Positions 1-6,663 of a stretch of 33,161 nucleotides of DNA are shown piece after piece. The DNA is taken from assembly GCA_013213825.1 (NCBI GenBank), contig JABSQA010000010.1:11122-44282 (forward strand). Direction: 5' to 3'. The stretch's first letter is position 1. Every line of letters starts with the position of its first letter. The stretch comes from Henriciella sp. (lineage in GTDB: Bacteria; Pseudomonadota; Alphaproteobacteria; Caulobacterales; Hyphomonadaceae). Under the pieces are notes generated by a model, which did not search any database, was not told the origin of the DNA, and saw only the letters and a list, made by a program, of their open reading frames with translations. The position numbers and the translations under genes are program-made.

Positions 1-1824
1 CAGGGTGTCATCGGTTGGGCCGAACGCACCGGCTTGGTAGTCGAAGCCAAAGCGACCGGTGATTTCCTCAAACTCCGCTTCTTGGGCTGGACCGCCTTGC
101 GCGAAGCCATTCTGTTCGCCTGGGAACGCTGTGGCTGGCGCCAGAAGCAAGCTCGGCGTATTCTCTTGGCGCTTTTGGTCATTCGTATACCGAAGACCCA
201 AGGTCCAAGTCAGATTGTCTGTGGCGTCCCAATAGGTTTCACCAAAAATACCGAGGGCATCGAGTTTATACGGGCTGCGGCTCAAGAAATATGTACGATC
301 GCCTGGCAAGCTCGTCGCTGCCCCCAAGGCTTCCGCCGTGTTGAAGAAGACGAAATAATTCGTTTCCCCGATGGAATCCAATTTCAAAGCGCCGAGCGTG
401 AAATTGAATGCGCCATCAAAGTCTGACTGAAGACGGGCCTCGAACGAGGTGGTCTCAAAATCGGAACTCGAATTGTCGGTCGCCAGCAAAGTATCCGCAG
501 GTGCCCGTAGTCTTGTATCGACAGGGATTTGCAAGCCGAGCGCTGGCCCACCTGGGAAGTCGCCGTCACCGTCGCCATCAAGGTCTGGAGTCAGCGGTGT
601 GATGTTAAACGGAACCGTACCGATGCCTTTATTATAGTCATCGGTGAAAAGACGGAAATTGTCATTATAGCTGCCCAACAGGGTCAGCGTCAGATCATTT
701 TCGAACTCATACTGAACTTGTGCCTGAACCGTGTTAGATTCCGCCTCAAATGTTGGCACCAGGTTGGTTTCAAACTCGCGAAGATTGCTCGATGTTGTCG
801 CGCCTGCATTACTGTCCGTACCGAAGGCCGAATAAAGGCCAAGGTTCGCGGCCAAGACACCACCCAAGGTACCAGCGGTGTTTACGGTCCCTAGGCCAGG
901 ACGCACTTGGATTGGATTGCCATTAGCGTCACGGGCATAGCCGAGACCTTCAATCTGATACGGCACACAGCCTTGATTGAATGGGAATGGACGGGTGTCC
1001 TTGGTACACAGCTGCTTGGTCGCCCGAGTCCGGGTCGAGTCTTCTTCATAATGCTCGCCCATCACCCAGAACGATAGCTGATCGGTCAGTTCACCGGCCA
1101 GCGTGCCGCGAATGGCCCAGAGATCCCGGCCATCAACATCTTGGGTGCTGCCATCTGGCAGAATGGCATCTGAATAGCCATCCCGCTTCAAATAGGTGCC
1201 CGCGACGCGCGCTGCGAAACGCTCACCGAGTGGCACATTTATGTGTCCAGACAGTTTTTGATTGTTGAATTCGCCATAGGTCAGTTCTGCACTGGCATTG
1301 AATTCTTCAAACACAGGTTTTGCGGTAATCGCGTTGACCACGCCGCCCGTCGCGTTGCGACCATAAAGTGTACCTTGCGGGCCACGGAGGATCTCGATGC
1401 GCTCTACGTCGTAGAACTCAGTCTCGAGCAAGGTTGAACCGGAAGAAGACACGCCATTGGTGTGGGTACCCACGGCCGCATCTGAAGATGCGCCAACCGC
1501 AGCGTTAATGATGCCGCGGATACTGATACCACCCGCGGAGAAGTTGCCCTGAGTTGAGCCGAAATTTGGAATATTGAACTGGAGATCCGAACCGGTCTCA
1601 ATGTTCAAACGTTCCAATGCGTCAGGGTCGAAGGCCGAAACCGCGATCGGTACGTCTTGAATCGATTCGTCCCGTTTTTGCGTGGTCACGACGACTGTGC
1701 TGAGCGTCCGCGCTTCGGCGTCTTCCGTCGCATCTTGCGCAATAGCATGGGGGGCTGCTGCCGTAAGTGCGAGCGCCGAGGCGCCTGCCCAATAGATATA
1801 ATTCGGGCGTCTTCTAACTTTCAT
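1..1824 (-). CDS. TonB-dependent receptor, N-terminal 608 codons (3' end outside window)
   Basis: Outer-membrane active-transport receptor energised by TonB-ExbBD; the substrate is unknown. The frame is open from the ATG at 1824 to the window edge at every stretch I translated, so the gene is cut by the window and not broken. Residues 1-30 form a Sec signal (MKVRRRPNY, then a hydrophobic stretch ending AIAQ). A TonB-box-like segment (TLSTVVVTTQK) and a plug domain follow. The plug contains the family hallmarks IQDVPIAVSAF, ISIRGI and LRGPQGTLYGRNATGGVVN. The barrel then continues to the end of the visible part. A putative outer loop carries two cysteines (KQLC and QGC) that may form a disulphide. 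It is a diverged paralogue of the complete receptor at 2109-5072, closest in the first 170 residues, which points to tandem duplication. It has its own leader and ribosome binding site downstream of the first receptor's terminator. Confidence 0.93.
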   Translation of the reverse strand, partial: MKVRRRPNYIYWAGASALALTAAAPHAIAQDATEDAEARTLSTVVVTTQKRDESIQDVPIAVSAFDPDALERLNIETGSDLQFNIPNFGSTQGNFSAGGISIRGIINAAVGASSDAAVGTHTNGVSSSGSTLLETEFYDVERIEILRGPQGTLYGRNATGGVVNAITAKPVFEEFNASAELTYGEFNNQKLSGHINVPLGERFAARVAGTYLKRDGYSDAILPDGSTQDVDGRDLWAIRGTLAGELTDQLSFWVMGEHYEEDSTRTRATKQLCTKDTRPFPFNQGCVPYQIEGLGYARDANGNPIQVRPGLGTVNTAGTLGGVLAANLGLYSAFGTDSNAGATTSSNLREFETNLVPTFEAESNTVQAQVQYEFENDLTLTLLGSYNDNFRLFTDDYNKGIGTVPFNITPLTPDLDGDGDGDFPGGPALGLQIPVDTRLRAPADTLLATDNSSSDFETTSFEARLQSDFDGAFNFTLGALKLDSIGETNYFVFFNTAEALGAATSLPGDRTYFLSRSPYKLDALGIFGETYWDATDNLTWTLGLRYTNDQKRQENTPSLLLAPATAFPGEQNGFAQGGPAQEAEFEEITGRFGFDYQAGAFGPTDDTL

Positions 1825-1951
1825 GTGTATACTCCTCCCTCGATGCCTTTTTGTTAGGGTGGCATCTAAGTTTCACGTTTCCTCATGGGCTTCCCGTGTT
1901 GTCCGGGAATGCCTCGTGACTATGACAGGGTGAACCGCGACATTTTGTCAA
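1825..1951 (-). promoter_or_regulatory. Promoter-like element, two-hairpin leader and strong RBS of the truncated receptor
   Basis: Read on the minus strand, TTGACA lies at 1951-1946, although no good -10 box stands out after it. Next comes hairpin 1 (1913-1888): arms GGC-A-TTCCCG and CGGGAAGCC, one bulged A, loop GACAACA. Hairpin 2 (1866-1842) has arms GATGCC and GGCATC. A very strong Shine-Dalgarno GGGAGGAG (1839-1832) sits seven bases before the ATG. The same order and almost the same spacing occur before the second receptor. Promoter function is inferred; the inverted repeats and their conservation are visible directly. Confidence 0.55.
1876..1913 (-). repeat. 38-base leader repeat, copy A
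   Basis: This block matches 5122-5159 at 35 of 38 positions and has no gap. It contains hairpin 1 of the receptor leader. One of the three differences falls in the stem, where a C-G pair here corresponds to a U-G wobble in the other copy, so pairing survives at the RNA level. Confidence 0.85.
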
Positions 1952-2043
1952 TGATTTACGTTGGGTGAGGCGCTGTGTTCTTTCAACCACTGCGATCAAC
2001 TTCCCACATTCAATTTCGGCTTTTATTCCAGGTCACTAACGTC

Positions 2044-2070
2044 AAAAGGGCGCCTCATGCTGAGGCGCCC
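2044..2070 (-). terminator. Intrinsic terminator of the complete TonB-dependent receptor
   Basis: A perfect 10-bp stem (GGGCGCCTCA / TGAGGCGCCC, 2048-2070) with a 3-base loop is followed on the minus strand by TTTT (2047-2044). It lies about 40 bases after the stop codon of the receptor at 2109-5072. It should separate that transcript from the downstream receptor, which has its own promoter-like leader. Confidence 0.85.
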
Positions 2071-2108
2071 ATTCGGTTTACAACCATATGGTGTTGTGCC
2101 GAGTTCGA

Positions 2109-5072
2109 TTACCAGCGTTTCGAGATGGTCACGCCATAGGTCGATGGCTCATTCAGGAAGACATTGGTGAACAGGCCAGAGCTATCATCGGTCAGGTATG
2201 CACCCGTGATGACTTCTTCGTCGGTAATGTTCTTGCCGAAGATTTCGACGGACCAATCATTCTCTGTATTCATCAGCTGCAGAGACAAGTTGATATTGTC
2301 CCAGCTCTCCAGAACGTCACGCTGCGTGTTCCAGATGCGGCTGAAAGCCGACGCTTGGTAATAGTAGTCGCCGCGAAGACGGACATCCCAAGCATCGTTA
2401 AACACACCTTCCCATGTATATTCAGCACCGAAGTTGAACGTGGTGTCAGGCGTGCCAGGGAGGGCGTTGCCGTCCAAGTCCTTGGCGTCGCCATCGAAAG
2501 GCTCGAACGCTGTCGCCGTCTGAGCATTGCCATTGCCGTCTGTGTAGCTGACGGTCACGCCGCCCAATCCGAATGCGGCTTCCAGACCTTGCAATGCGCC
2601 TGAGCAAAGCCCCAGCGTATCGCCTGGATTGGCCAACCCGCCAGCGATTGCGCCCAATAGGGTCGCATAGCCTTGAGCGGAGACAACACAATTAGAGGCG
2701 TTCGCAAAATTCTTCAGCACCACCAAGTCGCTGCGACCATTGGTGCGGTCCAGTACAGCAACGCCAAACGTGTCGACCACTTGCGCGTCGAGCAAACCGA
2801 GGTTCGCATTGACGACGAAAGTCGATGCGGGATTCCAGATCGTCTCCAGTTCGAGACCTTTAATTTCGGCGTCGACATTGAAGTTCGCCGACGTCCGATT
2901 GACGATGGCGGAGATCTGGTAGCCTTCATAATTGTAGAAGAACCCGGTTGCGTTTAGCTGCATCGCGCCGCCTGCGAGCGTGTTCTTCGTCCCGACCTCG
3001 TAGGAGTCAATAAACTCCGGGTCGAAGGTTTGGGGCACACCTGACGTATTGTCTGCAGGCTGGGGTGGGTTAATCCCGCCACCTTTATAGCCGCGTGAGT
3101 AGAAGGCATAAATCAATGTGTCTTCCGACCAAGCAAAGTCCGGCGCCCAGTCAAATCCGAAACGGCCTGTGACCTCTTCGAACTGAGCGTTAAGTGTCCC
3201 GTCGCCGCCATTGTTTGCCGTTGCCCCCGGATTAGGGACAAAGACCAATGGATCAGGACGGCCAGCGTCCGCCGTTGCCAAGAAGGTTGGGATGTTCCCA
3301 ACTTCCTTTTTATCGTCCGTGTAACGCAAGCCGAGGGTCAGTTGCAGATCATCGGTGACGTCAAAATAACCTTCACCGAACACCGCAAAACTATCGAGCT
3401 TATATGGCGTGATCGAACGGAAATAGTTGCGATCCGTTCCATTGCCGAGATTATCAAGCGCTGTCGCGCCTGCATTCGCTGGAGCGGCGATTGAGAAAAT
3501 GTCGCCGCCAAGAAGGGCCTGACCGACCGCATTATTGGCTTGGACGAAGGCGGACCCGGTATTGAAGAAAACATAATAGCTTTCTTGCACCGCTGGTCCC
3601 TGATTGACTTCAAAATCGAGCTTAATCGCACCGACATTGAAATTGAACGGGCCATCAAAGTCTGATTGCAAACGGATTTCATGAGAGGTCTGTTCTGACT
3701 CCGAGCCCGAAATATCAGCCTGCTCTAAGAAGTTCGCTTGCCCAAGTTGTGGGTCGCTGACGACTCCGCCTGGAAAGAGCGCAGGAAAAGCCGCGGCGAT
3801 GACAGGAGCTGAGTCACCATTCAACGCAATAAATGGGCCTGGCGTTGTATTGAACGTGAAGGCCGGCGCCGTCTCATTATAGTCTTCTTGCGAGATGTTC
3901 ATCCGCTCATTGAATGACCCGAGATAGGTTGCCGTCAGATTGTCCGTGACGTCATACTCGGCCCGCAACATGTAGAATGTCTGCTCGGTTTCGAAGGTTG
4001 GATCGAAGGAACTCTCAATCGTCCGATAGTCTGGATTGTACGCGCCCGGCTCATTGATGTTGAACAGATTGCCATTCGCGTCCACGGCGCCAGTGACGCC
4101 TGCCAAGGCACCAAAGACACCGCCGCCCAAGGTCGATGCTTGGTTGATACCGCCAAGTGATGCGTTGCTTCGAACAGGCGCATCCACACACCCTTGTGAG
4201 GTGATGATCTGGTCGATGAAGGAAATCGGCGCCCCCCCGAACGAGGTCTTCGTTGGATCGGTGGCACAGAATTGCTTGCCCGACCGCAGACGAGAATCAT
4301 CCTCGTTGAAATGCTCAACCATGACCAGGCCTCTCAGCCGGTCTGTCGGTTCGAATGCCAACGACGCCCGCAAGCTGTAAAGCTCGCGATCATCGATATC
4401 ATTGCCAGTCGTCAAATTGTCGACATAGCCATCGCGGCTGAGATATGAGCCGGCCATGCGCAAAGCTGCGGTCTCTCCGATTGGCAGGTTCACCATGCCT
4501 TTGCCTTTGACCGTATTGTAATTGCCATAGGTCAAACGGGCATCCGCTTGGAACTCTTCAAGCACCGGTTTTGCGGTGATTAGATTGACCACACCGCCGG
4601 TGGCGTTTCGTCCGTAGAGCGTGCCTTGCGGACCCCGCAAAGTTTCAACACGCTCGACATCATAGAACTCAGCTTCGAACAAGCTGTTGGAAGTGAGTGG
4701 GACGTCGTTCAAGTGGACACCCACGCCAGCGTCAGCCGCGGTCGAAACCGCGTCCACGCCAATGCCGCGAATACGGAAGTTGAAGCCGCCAAAGTTGCCT
4801 TTGGTGAAATTCACGTTGGGGATGGCTTTCACAAGGTCAGGGCCACCCGCCAGCTGCATATCGTCCAAGGCGCCTTCATCAAACGCGGACACCGCGATCG
4901 GGACGTCTTGAATCGACTCTTCCGTTTTCTGTGTGGTGACGAGAACTGTACTGAGTGTGCGCGTATTATCCTCGTCTTGGTCTTGCGCAACCGCGACCGG
5001 GGTCGCGGCAGTGATGGCCAGTGCGGATGCGCCGGCTAATAAGACATAATTCGAACGTCGTGAGACTTTCAT
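2109..5072 (-). CDS. TonB-dependent receptor, complete (987 aa)
   Basis: Outer-membrane TonB-gated transporter of unknown ligand. Residues 1-29 form a Sec signal ending AVA before QDQDED. A TonB-box-like segment TLSTVLVTTQK is near residues 39-49. The plug spans about 52-170 and contains IQDVPIAVSAF, FRIRGIGVDAV and LRGPQGTLYGRNATGG. The remainder is beta-barrel with typical strands such as GRFGFDWAPDFAW and AFYSRGYKGGGINPP. The protein ends YGVTISKRW, with the terminal aromatic residue expected of barrel proteins. The length is high but normal for this class of alphaproteobacterial receptors. Cysteine pairs occur in putative outer loops (KQFC with SQGC, and SNC with GLC), the first shared with its tandem paralogue. 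The start is fixed by GGGAGGAG at 5087-5080. It is a single-gene unit closed by the terminator at 2044-2070. Nothing nearby identifies the cargo. Confidence 0.95.
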   Translation of the reverse strand: MKVSRRSNYVLLAGASALAITAATPVAVAQDQDEDNTRTLSTVLVTTQKTEESIQDVPIAVSAFDEGALDDMQLAGGPDLVKAIPNVNFTKGNFGGFNFRIRGIGVDAVSTAADAGVGVHLNDVPLTSNSLFEAEFYDVERVETLRGPQGTLYGRNATGGVVNLITAKPVLEEFQADARLTYGNYNTVKGKGMVNLPIGETAALRMAGSYLSRDGYVDNLTTGNDIDDRELYSLRASLAFEPTDRLRGLVMVEHFNEDDSRLRSGKQFCATDPTKTSFGGAPISFIDQIITSQGCVDAPVRSNASLGGINQASTLGGGVFGALAGVTGAVDANGNLFNINEPGAYNPDYRTIESSFDPTFETEQTFYMLRAEYDVTDNLTATYLGSFNERMNISQEDYNETAPAFTFNTTPGPFIALNGDSAPVIAAAFPALFPGGVVSDPQLGQANFLEQADISGSESEQTSHEIRLQSDFDGPFNFNVGAIKLDFEVNQGPAVQESYYVFFNTGSAFVQANNAVGQALLGGDIFSIAAPANAGATALDNLGNGTDRNYFRSITPYKLDSFAVFGEGYFDVTDDLQLTLGLRYTDDKKEVGNIPTFLATADAGRPDPLVFVPNPGATANNGGDGTLNAQFEEVTGRFGFDWAPDFAWSEDTLIYAFYSRGYKGGGINPPQPADNTSGVPQTFDPEFIDSYEVGTKNTLAGGAMQLNATGFFYNYEGYQISAIVNRTSANFNVDAEIKGLELETIWNPASTFVVNANLGLLDAQVVDTFGVAVLDRTNGRSDLVVLKNFANASNCVVSAQGYATLLGAIAGGLANPGDTLGLCSGALQGLEAAFGLGGVTVSYTDGNGNAQTATAFEPFDGDAKDLDGNALPGTPDTTFNFGAEYTWEGVFNDAWDVRLRGDYYYQASAFSRIWNTQRDVLESWDNINLSLQLMNTENDWSVEIFGKNITDEEVITGAYLTDDSSGLFTNVFLNEPSTYGVTISKRW

Positions 5073-5197
5073 GTGCTTACTCCTCCCTCGTTGCCTTAAA
5101 AAATGGCACGAGTTTTCATTGCGTTTCCTCGAGGGCTTCCCATGTTGTCCGGGAATGCCGCATCACGCATGACGAGGATGTAGGGCGAGTTTGTCAA
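5073..5197 (-). promoter_or_regulatory. Promoter-like element, two-hairpin leader and strong RBS of the complete receptor
   Basis: The layout mirrors the region before the other receptor. On the minus strand TTGACA lies at 5197-5192. Hairpin 1 (5159-5134) has the same GACAACA loop, closed by a G-U pair. A second, smaller hairpin TGCC / GGCA (5108-5092) follows, and then the Shine-Dalgarno GGGAGGAG (5087-5080). TTGACA is 38 bases from the near edge of the 38-base block, within one base of the other copy. The -10 box is not clear. Confidence 0.55.
5122..5159 (-). repeat. 38-base leader repeat, copy B
   Basis: Second copy of the block at 1876-1913, with 35 of 38 bases identical. It lies 49 bases before the start codon, against 51 for copy A. 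Conservation of this non-coding block, while the flanking leader sequence has drifted, argues for function and not merely a recent duplication. Confidence 0.85.
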
Positions 5198-5247
5198 TGA
5201 GTATCCGCGCGGAACGTTATATTGAGCAGTACACTGTGACAATTGGT

Positions 5248-5261
5248 ACACGATATTGTGT
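5248..5261. promoter_or_regulatory. Imperfect palindrome between the receptor and queC
   Basis: ACACGATATTGTGT pairs at 12 of 14 positions about its centre. It lies 47 bases before the queC start in the divergent intergenic region. GTACAC occurs twice here (5229-5234 and 5246-5251). It could be an operator or a chance AT-rich palindrome; there is no second copy in the window to support it. Confidence 0.25.
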
Positions 5262-5308
5262 CGTTTTGAGATACAGAGATAAGAACACTATTAGGAGTGG
5301 AAAATAAT

Positions 5309-6016
5309 ATGTCTGAGCGCTCCGCTCTCGTCCTCTTCTCTGGCGGACAAGATTCGACCATCTGCCTTGCCCACGCACTGGCGCATTATGACCGCGTGGA
5401 GACCGTTGGCTTTGATTATGGCCAACGGCATTCTGTTGAACTGGAATGCCGTCCTAAGATCATAAGCGCGATCAAAGCTGCGTTTCCGCAATGGGCGGAT
5501 AAGTTAGGACAAGACCGGTTGTGCGATGTGTCTGTGCTCAGTGGGATTAGCGACACGGCGATGATCGCGGAGACTGAAATCGTCATCGCGGAAAACGGAT
5601 TGCCGAATACATTTGTCCCCGGACGCAATCTTTTGTTCCTCACCTTGGCAGGGGCGATTGCGTGGCGGCGCGGCATTTCCAACTTGATCGGCGGCATGTG
5701 CGAAACTGACTATTCGGGCTACCCTGATTGTCGGCGTGGGACCCTGGATGCTCAAGCTTTGGCATTGTCGCGTGGCATGGATCGTCCATTCAATATCGAA
5801 ACACCTCTGATGTGGCTTGATAAAGCAGAGACATGGGAATTGGCTCAGGAGCTGGGCGGGCAGAAGCTTGTCAATCTCGTCATCGAGGAGACCCATACCT
5901 GTTATCTCGGGGACCGGGAGCATCGCCATGAATGGGGCTATGGTTGCGGCACTTGCCCGGCCTGTGATCTGCGCGCCAAGGGCTATGAAACTTGGCGTGC
6001 TAAGGTCCCGGCATGA
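5309..6016 (+). CDS. queC: 7-cyano-7-deazaguanine synthase QueC
   Basis: Cytoplasmic ATP-dependent ligase that converts 7-carboxy-7-deazaguanine and ammonia into preQ0, the last preQ0 step in queuosine synthesis. The PP-loop SGGQDS is at residues 11-16. FDYGQRH follows at 35-41. [11 protein letters not shown] is at 132-142. The C-terminal zinc site uses C198, C213, C216 and C219 ([10 protein letters not shown]). At 235 residues it matches the family. I chose ATG 5309, which has AGGAG at 5293-5297 eleven bases upstream. An in-frame GTG at 5297 would add only four residues and overlaps that Shine-Dalgarno. Its stop overlaps the queE start as ATGA, so the two genes are probably translationally coupled. 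It is the first gene of a queC-queE-queD operon. Confidence 0.96.
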
Positions 6017-6663
6017 AGACCTATTCGGTCAAAGAAGCCTATGTGACCTTGCAAGGCGAGGGCGCGCAAACTGGGCGCGCCGCCGTCTTCTTGCGCTTTG
6101 CTGGCTGCAATCTCTGGTCAGGCTTGGAGCGAGATCGCGCAAGCGCGGTGTGCAATTTCTGCGATACGGATTTTGTCGGGACCGATGGGGACAATGGCGG
6201 TAAATTTATCGGCGCTGAAGCTCTGGCAGAGCACGTCCAAAATGTTTGGAACGCAGCTGCCCCGAACGGTGGCACGCCTTATGTTATCTGCACGGGCGGA
6301 GAGCCACTTTTACAACTCGATCCTGAGGCCATTGCGGCGCTCAAAGCCGCGGGTTTCGAAATTGGCATTGAAACCAATGGCACATTAAATGCCCCAACTG
6401 GTATCGATTGGATCTGCGTTAGCCCCAAGGCCAATGCTAAACTCCAACAGGTGACCGGCCAAGAATTGAAACTGGTCTTCCCTCAAGATCAGCCCGAGGC
6501 CCAACCGTCTCAATTTGAAAGCTTGCAGTTTGAACACTTTTTTCTGCAGCCTAAAGATGATACGGCGCACGCCCAGAACATCGCGGCAGCGGCCGCATAT
6601 TGTATGAAGCATCCAAAATGGCGACTAAGCTTACAGACACACAAATTGATCGGTCTGCCGTGA
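6013..6663 (+). CDS. queE: 7-carboxy-7-deazaguanine synthase QueE (radical SAM)
   Basis: Radical SAM enzyme that contracts 6-carboxy-5,6,7,8-tetrahydropterin to 7-carboxy-7-deazaguanine, feeding QueC. At 216 residues it is compact, as expected. The iron-sulphur ligands are C32, C47 and C50, giving CX14CX2C (GCN ... [10 protein letters not shown]) in place of the usual CX3CX2C. This expanded loop is an established variant of proteobacterial QueE. The SAM-binding GGEP is at 95-98 ([10 protein letters not shown]). IETNGT and CVSPKAN further on are also typical. The start overlaps the queC stop by four bases, and queD begins around the queE stop. The product therefore comes from a three-gene operon with an unusual order: QueD makes the QueE substrate but is encoded last. 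Confidence 0.95.

Follow-up and report, generated by a model that had tools for sequence, protein, structure and literature searches.

A conserved two-hairpin leader of a TonB-dependent receptor lineage in Henriciella and relatives, with a probable target site for alphaR8-type sRNAs

Two tandem TonB-dependent receptor genes of a Henriciella sp. genome carry a leader that is almost certainly a structured RNA element under selection, and that is likely to act as a 5' UTR presenting a dedicated target site for an sRNA of the alphaR8 type. Both copies lie in the window, meaning the whole 33,161-nucleotide stretch of DNA that was analysed. Sequence comparison across three genera finds the same order of parts throughout, namely a first hairpin (H1), the linker GAGGAAACGC, a second hairpin (H2) and the Shine-Dalgarno sequence (SD). 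This linker is the exact complement of GCGUUUCCUC, the core of the alphaR8/MmgR/SisA sRNA family (RF00519), whose consensus reads GGGCGUUUcCUCCCU. Judged from this complementarity, pairing of an alphaR8 sRNA with the leader is quite likely, and repression is the slightly favoured sign of its effect.

On the minus strand receptor b comes first and receptor a follows. Each leader, read 5' to 3' on that strand, consists of TTGACA, H1, the linker, H2, GGGAGGAG and ATG, and the features of the locus are as follows.

1..1824, minus strand: receptor a, TonB-dependent receptor with Plug and part of the barrel; gene truncated by the window edge, ATG at 1822-1824
1832..1839, minus strand: Shine-Dalgarno GGGAGGAG of receptor a, also complementary to alphaR8 through GGGAGGA (second site)
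1842..1866, minus strand: hairpin H2 of the receptor a leader, ending 2 nt before the SD
1875..1884, minus strand: single-stranded linker GAGGAAACGU of receptor a, complementing the alphaR8 core with 9 Watson-Crick pairs and a possible G-U pair
1888..1913, minus strand: hairpin H1 of the receptor a leader, GGC/GCC, bulged A, UUCCCG/CGGGAA, loop GACAACA
1946..1951, minus strand: presumed -35 TTGACA of receptor a, from consensus match and conservation
2048..2070, minus strand: inverted repeat and T run 3' of receptor b, probable terminator; minus-strand tail TTTTGACG read by eye, hairpin listed on the plus strand
2109..5072, minus strand: receptor b, TonB-dependent receptor of 987 aa with Plug and barrel family matches
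5080..5087, minus strand: Shine-Dalgarno GGGAGGAG of receptor b
5087..5112, minus strand: hairpin H2 of the receptor b leader (CUCGUGCC / GGCAACGAG), abutting the SD
5121..5130, minus strand: linker GAGGAAACGC of receptor b, exact complement of alphaR8 GCGUUUCCUC, 10 pairs
5134..5159, minus strand: hairpin H1 of the receptor b leader, closing pair G-U where receptor a has G-C
5192..5197, minus strand: presumed -35 TTGACA of receptor b, from consensus match and conservation

The partial receptor a protein matches the Plug family above cut-off and the barrel family at 23.1 bits, under the cut-off of 27; among the best 25 of the 27 and 26 NCBIfam rows for the two receptors, none stands above its curated cut-off. 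Since a probable terminator follows receptor b, receptor a is likely to have a promoter of its own.

An earlier note on this DNA, made from the letters alone, had described TTGACA, a 38-base block, a second hairpin and the SD in the same order in both leaders, and these coordinates are confirmed. The blocks at 1876-1913 and 5122-5159 differ at three positions and are thus identical at 35 of 38. H1 of both copies is composed of GGC, a bulged A, UUCCCG, the loop GACAACA, YGGGAA and GCC; as the note stated, the loop is identical and the sole stem change, from G-C to G-U, keeps the pairing. Its second hairpin stands at 1842-1866 in receptor a, whereas the foldable hairpin of receptor b spans 5087-5112 and is larger than the 5092-5108 given there. 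A 20-base H1 pattern built from both copies and allowed up to 3 mismatches is found twice in the window against 0.01 expected, a count reached in 0 of 100 shuffles, while the linker core GAGGAAACG alone is found twice against 0.44 expected, with 8 of 100 shuffles reaching two. Two paralogues by themselves could have all of these leader features in common through recent duplication; it is the relatives, compared at the level of sequence, that show selection.

Homologues of receptor b are present in all 29 genomes of the genus Henriciella, and in 21 of the 29 the receptor divergent from queC bears the H1-linker-H2-SD leader; in the source genome (G000) the tandem neighbour of that receptor has the leader as well. 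The earlier proposal to search receptor upstream regions of relatives with a covariance model was carried out with model R1, which covers H1 and the linker and was built from 20 sequences, and it yielded further leaders in the genus and in two other genera. Within the genus R1 finds 22 sites above 43 bits in 21 genomes, the next score being only 29 bits. With E up to 0.01, R1 matches 33 of 105 genomes of the family. Here the same leader, on a receptor beside queC, is found in G035, G113 and G114 of genus g8 and in G036 of genus g9 (25 bits); on reading, the weak matches in G023, G068, G091, G095, G100 and G127 lack the receptor layout. At the order level the threshold was E up to 1e-4, too strict for weak members such as G036; matches come from 24 of 398 sampled genomes, in 2 of 59 genera: 21 of the genus, including an orphan leader in G008, and 3 of g8.

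Altogether 27 model-aligned matches give 26 distinct leaders in 25 genomes, L001 and L032 both holding the receptor a site. Six of the 26 (G010, G013, G035, G113, G114 and G036) lie outside the R1 training set, and in G013 the locus L060 begins inside the gene, its leader having been recovered by R1 as L096. Receptor leaders at other loci that lack the linker are excluded from this set (G007, G008, G011, G015, G023, G024, G027 and two in G028, including L061). The expectation of copies upstream of other genes is thus borne out in number but not in kind: all are on this receptor lineage, and none precedes an unrelated gene. Within the collections searched, the element is the leader of one receptor lineage in one family. 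In the source genome R1 at E up to 0.01 returns two sites, both within the window. A general TonB-receptor leader was considered and rejected, as these are the only two R1 sites of the source genome and the leaders of paralogous receptors elsewhere are of other kinds. Some of these paralogues (L109-L117) show by eye a short hairpin just before the SD, such as GUCCGC..GACGGAC in L109.

The plain 20-base pattern was discarded as a probe, since it matches 26 of 61 genomes at up to 3 mismatches and reversed controls match about as often. Seven of its sites proved to be leaders, two in G000 and one each in G001, G003, G021, G025 and G026; a third match in the source genome (L003) was rejected as a leader because it sits in an open reading frame.

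Selection for RNA folding is indicated by the behaviour of H1, in which 92.7% of cells are paired across the 26 distinct leaders (shuffles give 73.6% and slid versions 26-58%) and both sides have changed in 8 of 9 pairs. These values come from an alignment fitted to the covariance model; an earlier MAFFT alignment (A5, 20 leaders) gives the same picture, with 90.6% paired and two-sided changes in 5 of 9 pairs. The prediction that relatives would keep the stem is upheld for H1 pairing as a whole, except that the two innermost pairs are often open, being unpaired in 6 of 26 and 11 of 25 cells. At most 5% of shuffles reach the H1 folding energy in 23 of 26 leaders and that of H2 in 24 of 26. A hairpin ends 0-4 nt upstream of the SD in all 26 leaders. 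The sequence of H2 varies among subgroups, its covariation being moderate in one of them (4 of 11 pairs, 6 distinct rows) and weak in another (1 of 8 pairs, reached by 84 of 500 shuffles). The two-sided changes in H1, the low folding energies of both hairpins and the matches outside the training set in two other genera bear out the suggestion of a selected RNA element in the 5' leader.

The most constant part of the leader, to judge from the aligned relatives, is the linker between the hairpins (1875-1884 and 5121-5130), which the earlier note had passed over. While the stems drift, GAGGAAACG is constant in 25 of 26 leaders, and the exception, G036, reads UAGGAAACGC and retains AGGAAACGC. This constancy bears on the strongest alternative, in which the leader is an mRNA stabiliser whose hairpins shield the 5' end and leave the SD accessible, the linker being an unstructured spacer or, with its GAGG, a landing site for the 30S subunit. 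The E. coli ompA 5' leader has two hairpins, a single-stranded linker and an exposed SD, which is by description the same layout, whereas here the constant linker is sequence-specific. Several observations suit a stabiliser: transcription starting 35 nt past the first base of TTGACA would put H1 3 nt later in both window leaders, both hairpins are retained despite sequence drift, and the SD has a mean unpaired probability of 0.29-0.93 over the 26 leaders. A mere spacer, however, would not keep GAGGAAACG amid stem changes in so many leaders, or AGGAAACGC in G036, and AAACGC is no part of an SD. Stabilisation as the whole function of the leader is unlikely.

A cis element that binds a protein or ligand, such as a riboswitch or a CsrA-type target, would be consistent with the constancy of the bulged A of H1 in the 20 aligned leaders and with the GGA found in both linker and SD. 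Rfam, however, gives no match at gathering threshold in the whole window and none within 1700-5400, leaders included, even at E up to 1, in keeping with the earlier view that the element is of no described form. Nor do the folds contain a conserved helix that hides the SD, apart from a small SD hairpin in G002, and a CsrA gene was not found in the source genome, the one genome searched (94% complete); a cis element of this kind is improbable. More so is a DNA operator, in which the block at 1876-1913 would be a palindromic site for a transcription regulator. H1 is indeed an inverted repeat just 3' of a promoter-like sequence, and a separate palindrome lies over the -35, but the half-sites become unrelated sequences (GGGCACAGCC / GGCUGGCCC in G002) with pairing kept, the loop ranges from 6 to 13 nt, and G-U pairs are present. 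Among the options the earlier note had offered, sRNA binding is thus now favoured and an operator in the H1 block disfavoured. An upstream open reading frame whose leader peptide would start at the linker with AUG or GUG AGG AAA CGC is scarcely credible: many leaders do read ATG or GTG there, but the same codon is GCG, ACG or TCG in others (G021, G001, G010; G026; G000b).

The reading of the linker as an sRNA target site is supported by the length, position and conservation of its match. The contiguous match to the sRNA core is 10 bases long in 23 of 26 leaders and 9 in the other three; for G013, G035, G036, G113 and G114 the match was made with a stand-in core, before their own sRNA candidates had been read. 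Duplex energies over the whole leader proved too permissive, with 0 to 129 of 200 shuffles as good, and were replaced by contiguous matches. Because the core is pyrimidine-rich and resembles an anti-SD, purine-rich leaders match it easily, and for each of the 26 leaders between 0 and 15 of 200 dinucleotide shuffles attain a match as long as the observed one, so that the case rests on position and conservation more than on any single leader. Linker and sRNA show no co-variation, since both are nearly invariant. The matched site has a mean unpaired probability of 0.41-0.84, its lowest value (G018) belonging to a tied match outside the linker and the next lowest being 0.46. Against the target reading, nine receptor leaders at other loci in eight genomes of the genus keep an SD but show no more than 7 matching bases upstream of it. 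For the linker the predicted duplex energies are -15.8 to -21.3 kcal/mol, for the SD -12.1 to -21.2 kcal/mol; as the two are about equal in many leaders, the linker is perhaps not the principal site. By eye, the GCG of the core is part of a weak stem of the sRNA, which must open for pairing.

Candidate partners are present in the same genomes. The complement of the linker 10-mer occurs at 15 sites in the source genome, one of them the receptor b leader, compared with 5 for a reversed control. At two of these sites (L064 and L076) units of GCGUUUCCUCCC are followed by rho-independent terminators, and both match RF00519 (suhB, MmgR) under the curated cut-off, at E 0.0026 and 0.021. Matches to this family at E up to 1 are uninformative, given that 13 of 14 control genomes also match, one of them above cut-off. 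RF00519 is found above cut-off in 21 of 29 genomes of the genus, and GGCGUUUCCUCCCU is present in the best RF00519 locus of 27 of the 29, as read from the loci. Canonical alphaR8 was not found in G000 or G013, which carry solely sibling units below the Rfam cut-off (two and one, respectively), and the four genomes of g8 and g9 have one match above the curated cut-off each. A predicted sRNA with the full linker complement is present in all 25 leader-bearing genomes.

Two further sets of loci resemble these sRNAs. A second alphaR8-like candidate, consisting of UCCUCCGAUUGGGCGUUUCCUCCCCC and a terminator, occurs in G000, G013, G035, G036, G113 and G114, and thus in three genera, without an Rfam match above cut-off (L201, L202, L205, L207, L211 and L212, around 1501-1513). 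In the source genome, two other TonB-receptor genes are followed by terminator-like hairpins whose loop is the alphaR8 core GCGUUUCCUCC (L067 and L074, around 1501-1510); the 3' regions look homologous by eye, and the hairpins are possibly 3'-derived sRNAs or mimics.

According to one report, alphaR8 sRNAs are found throughout the Alphaproteobacteria apart from Rickettsiales, and the direct targets found described there are from Caulobacter (PMC12559287). SisA to SisD have UUUCCUCCCU in common, and SisA represses the TonB receptor CCNA_03574 in Caulobacter crescentus through pairing of UUUCCUCCCU in the 5' UTR, as proven by compensatory changes (PMC12559287). The sRNA family and core, the class of target and pairing in the 5' UTR are alike in the present case, but the proven contact of SisA is at -6, near the start codon, whereas here a longer, separate upstream site is predicted between two conserved hairpins (PMC12559287). 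The second comparison is ChvR, which pairs with the TonB receptor mRNA chvT in Caulobacter at a 5'-end site (-70 to -59, in a weak stem-loop) and near the ribosome binding site (-20 to -10); it is a different sRNA that uses two different stretches, whereas here one core complements both sites (PMC6237742). With an upstream site beside H1 and a second one at the SD, as in the SisA and ChvR reports, repression by an sRNA is proposed, with the linker as its landing site. An alphaR8 sRNA, probably with Hfq, would land on the linker, which in receptor b lies 49-58 nt before the start codon, and the same core could also pair at the SD, whose GGGAGGA complements it. Pairing at these two sites would lower translation of the receptor or stability of its mRNA, as SisA does for the Caulobacter receptor. 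Protection of the mRNA would fall to H1, at the presumed 5' end, and H2 would keep the linker and the SD separate and unpaired. Alternatively, the linker could be a decoy that draws the sRNA off the SD, protecting the latter instead of aiding repression. With a ten-base sRNA site fixed between freely changing stems, comparison by itself suffices to define the target, and others can be found with a covariance model of the leader. In the open-access literature (subscription papers and preprints excluded), no title or abstract start among the matches listed dealt with such a leader.

In five genomes of the genus (G008, G011, G015, G024 and G028) there is no receptor beside queC, and a leader-like unit diverges from queC instead. 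This orphan unit consists of TTGACAAA, TGTCWTG, an H1-like hairpin, GUCAGGAA-GCAA, a variable middle, GGGGCCCCGCGA...GAGAGAGGGG and a terminator; it is 217-244 nt long and apparently non-coding (L122, L123, L124, L126 and L127), and Rfam gives no match at the five loci at E up to 0.5. In G000 and G003 the stop codon of the receptor is followed by a G-rich stretch and a terminator that closely resemble those of the orphans, in a comparison of receptor 3' ends that excludes the rows of G001, G013 and G026. Given this receptor-type G-rich stretch and terminator in the orphans, the most likely history is a loss of the coding region that lay between them and the leader. In a QueC tree of 30 rows, without G006, G007 and G113, the five orphan genomes form one group (support 98/91) that stands beside the receptor-bearing G000 and G003 (93/90, below the tool's star).

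Among the orphans, invariant columns are concentrated in the -35 (10 of 10), the -10 (6 of 7), the linker (12 of 14) and the terminator region (54 of 69), with intermediate values in H1 (14 of 27) and the anti-linker (6 of 11). The middle stretches have 2 of 36 and 5 of 52, the poorly kept H2 has 7 of 25, and the interval between -10 and H1 has 0 of 8; outside the unit, the stretch behind the terminator has 15 of 48 and the spacer towards queC 46 of 123. Predicted folds pair the linker with a downstream anti-linker, as GAAAC/GUUUC in G008 and GGAAUC/GAUUC in G028. By eye, the match to the sRNA core over AGGAAACGC is kept in G008 and G015; G011 and G028 each have a single mismatch there and G024 has two, and these mismatches count against a simple sponge role. 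Perhaps the orphan unit is a small RNA born from the leader of a lost receptor gene. That the leader is a self-contained sRNA-binding module that has outlived its gene, and that the orphan unit, with an anti-linker helix over the linker, could sponge alphaR8 in trans like CrfA, is a tentative and rather doubtful proposal. The Caulobacter sRNA CrfA sponges SisA to SisD by a G/A-rich stem loop complementary to the alphaR8 core, which is comparable in idea with the linker and the orphan leaders, the likeness being drawn from its description and not from sequence; CrfA is, however, an independent sRNA (PMC12559287). The same open-access literature, again apart from subscription papers and preprints, yielded no paper on a 5' UTR remnant of gene loss acting as an sRNA sponge. 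With the orphan leaders, the possible change of an mRNA leader into an independent small RNA can be placed on a phylogeny, and gene-bearing sister species remain available for comparison.

Some smaller observations concern the DNA between receptor and queC. The presumed -35 is overlapped by the palindrome TGACA-N3-TGTCA (window 1938-1951), which in receptor a reads TGACA-N3-TGTCG at 1938-1950. All five arm positions are matched in 14 of 26 leaders, four in receptor a and two in receptor b, and the palindrome is possibly the operator of some regulator. Divergent to the receptor lie queC and a radical SAM gene (window 5297-6663), the latter being, as we assume from its position beside queC, queE-like. 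The receptor adjoins queC in three genera, which may hint at the substrate of the receptor or be mere synteny. Between the two, about 38-55 nt upstream of the presumed -35, an inverted repeat GTGTAACATATGTCACAC that is presumably CRP/FNR-like can be seen by eye in L054 and L056.
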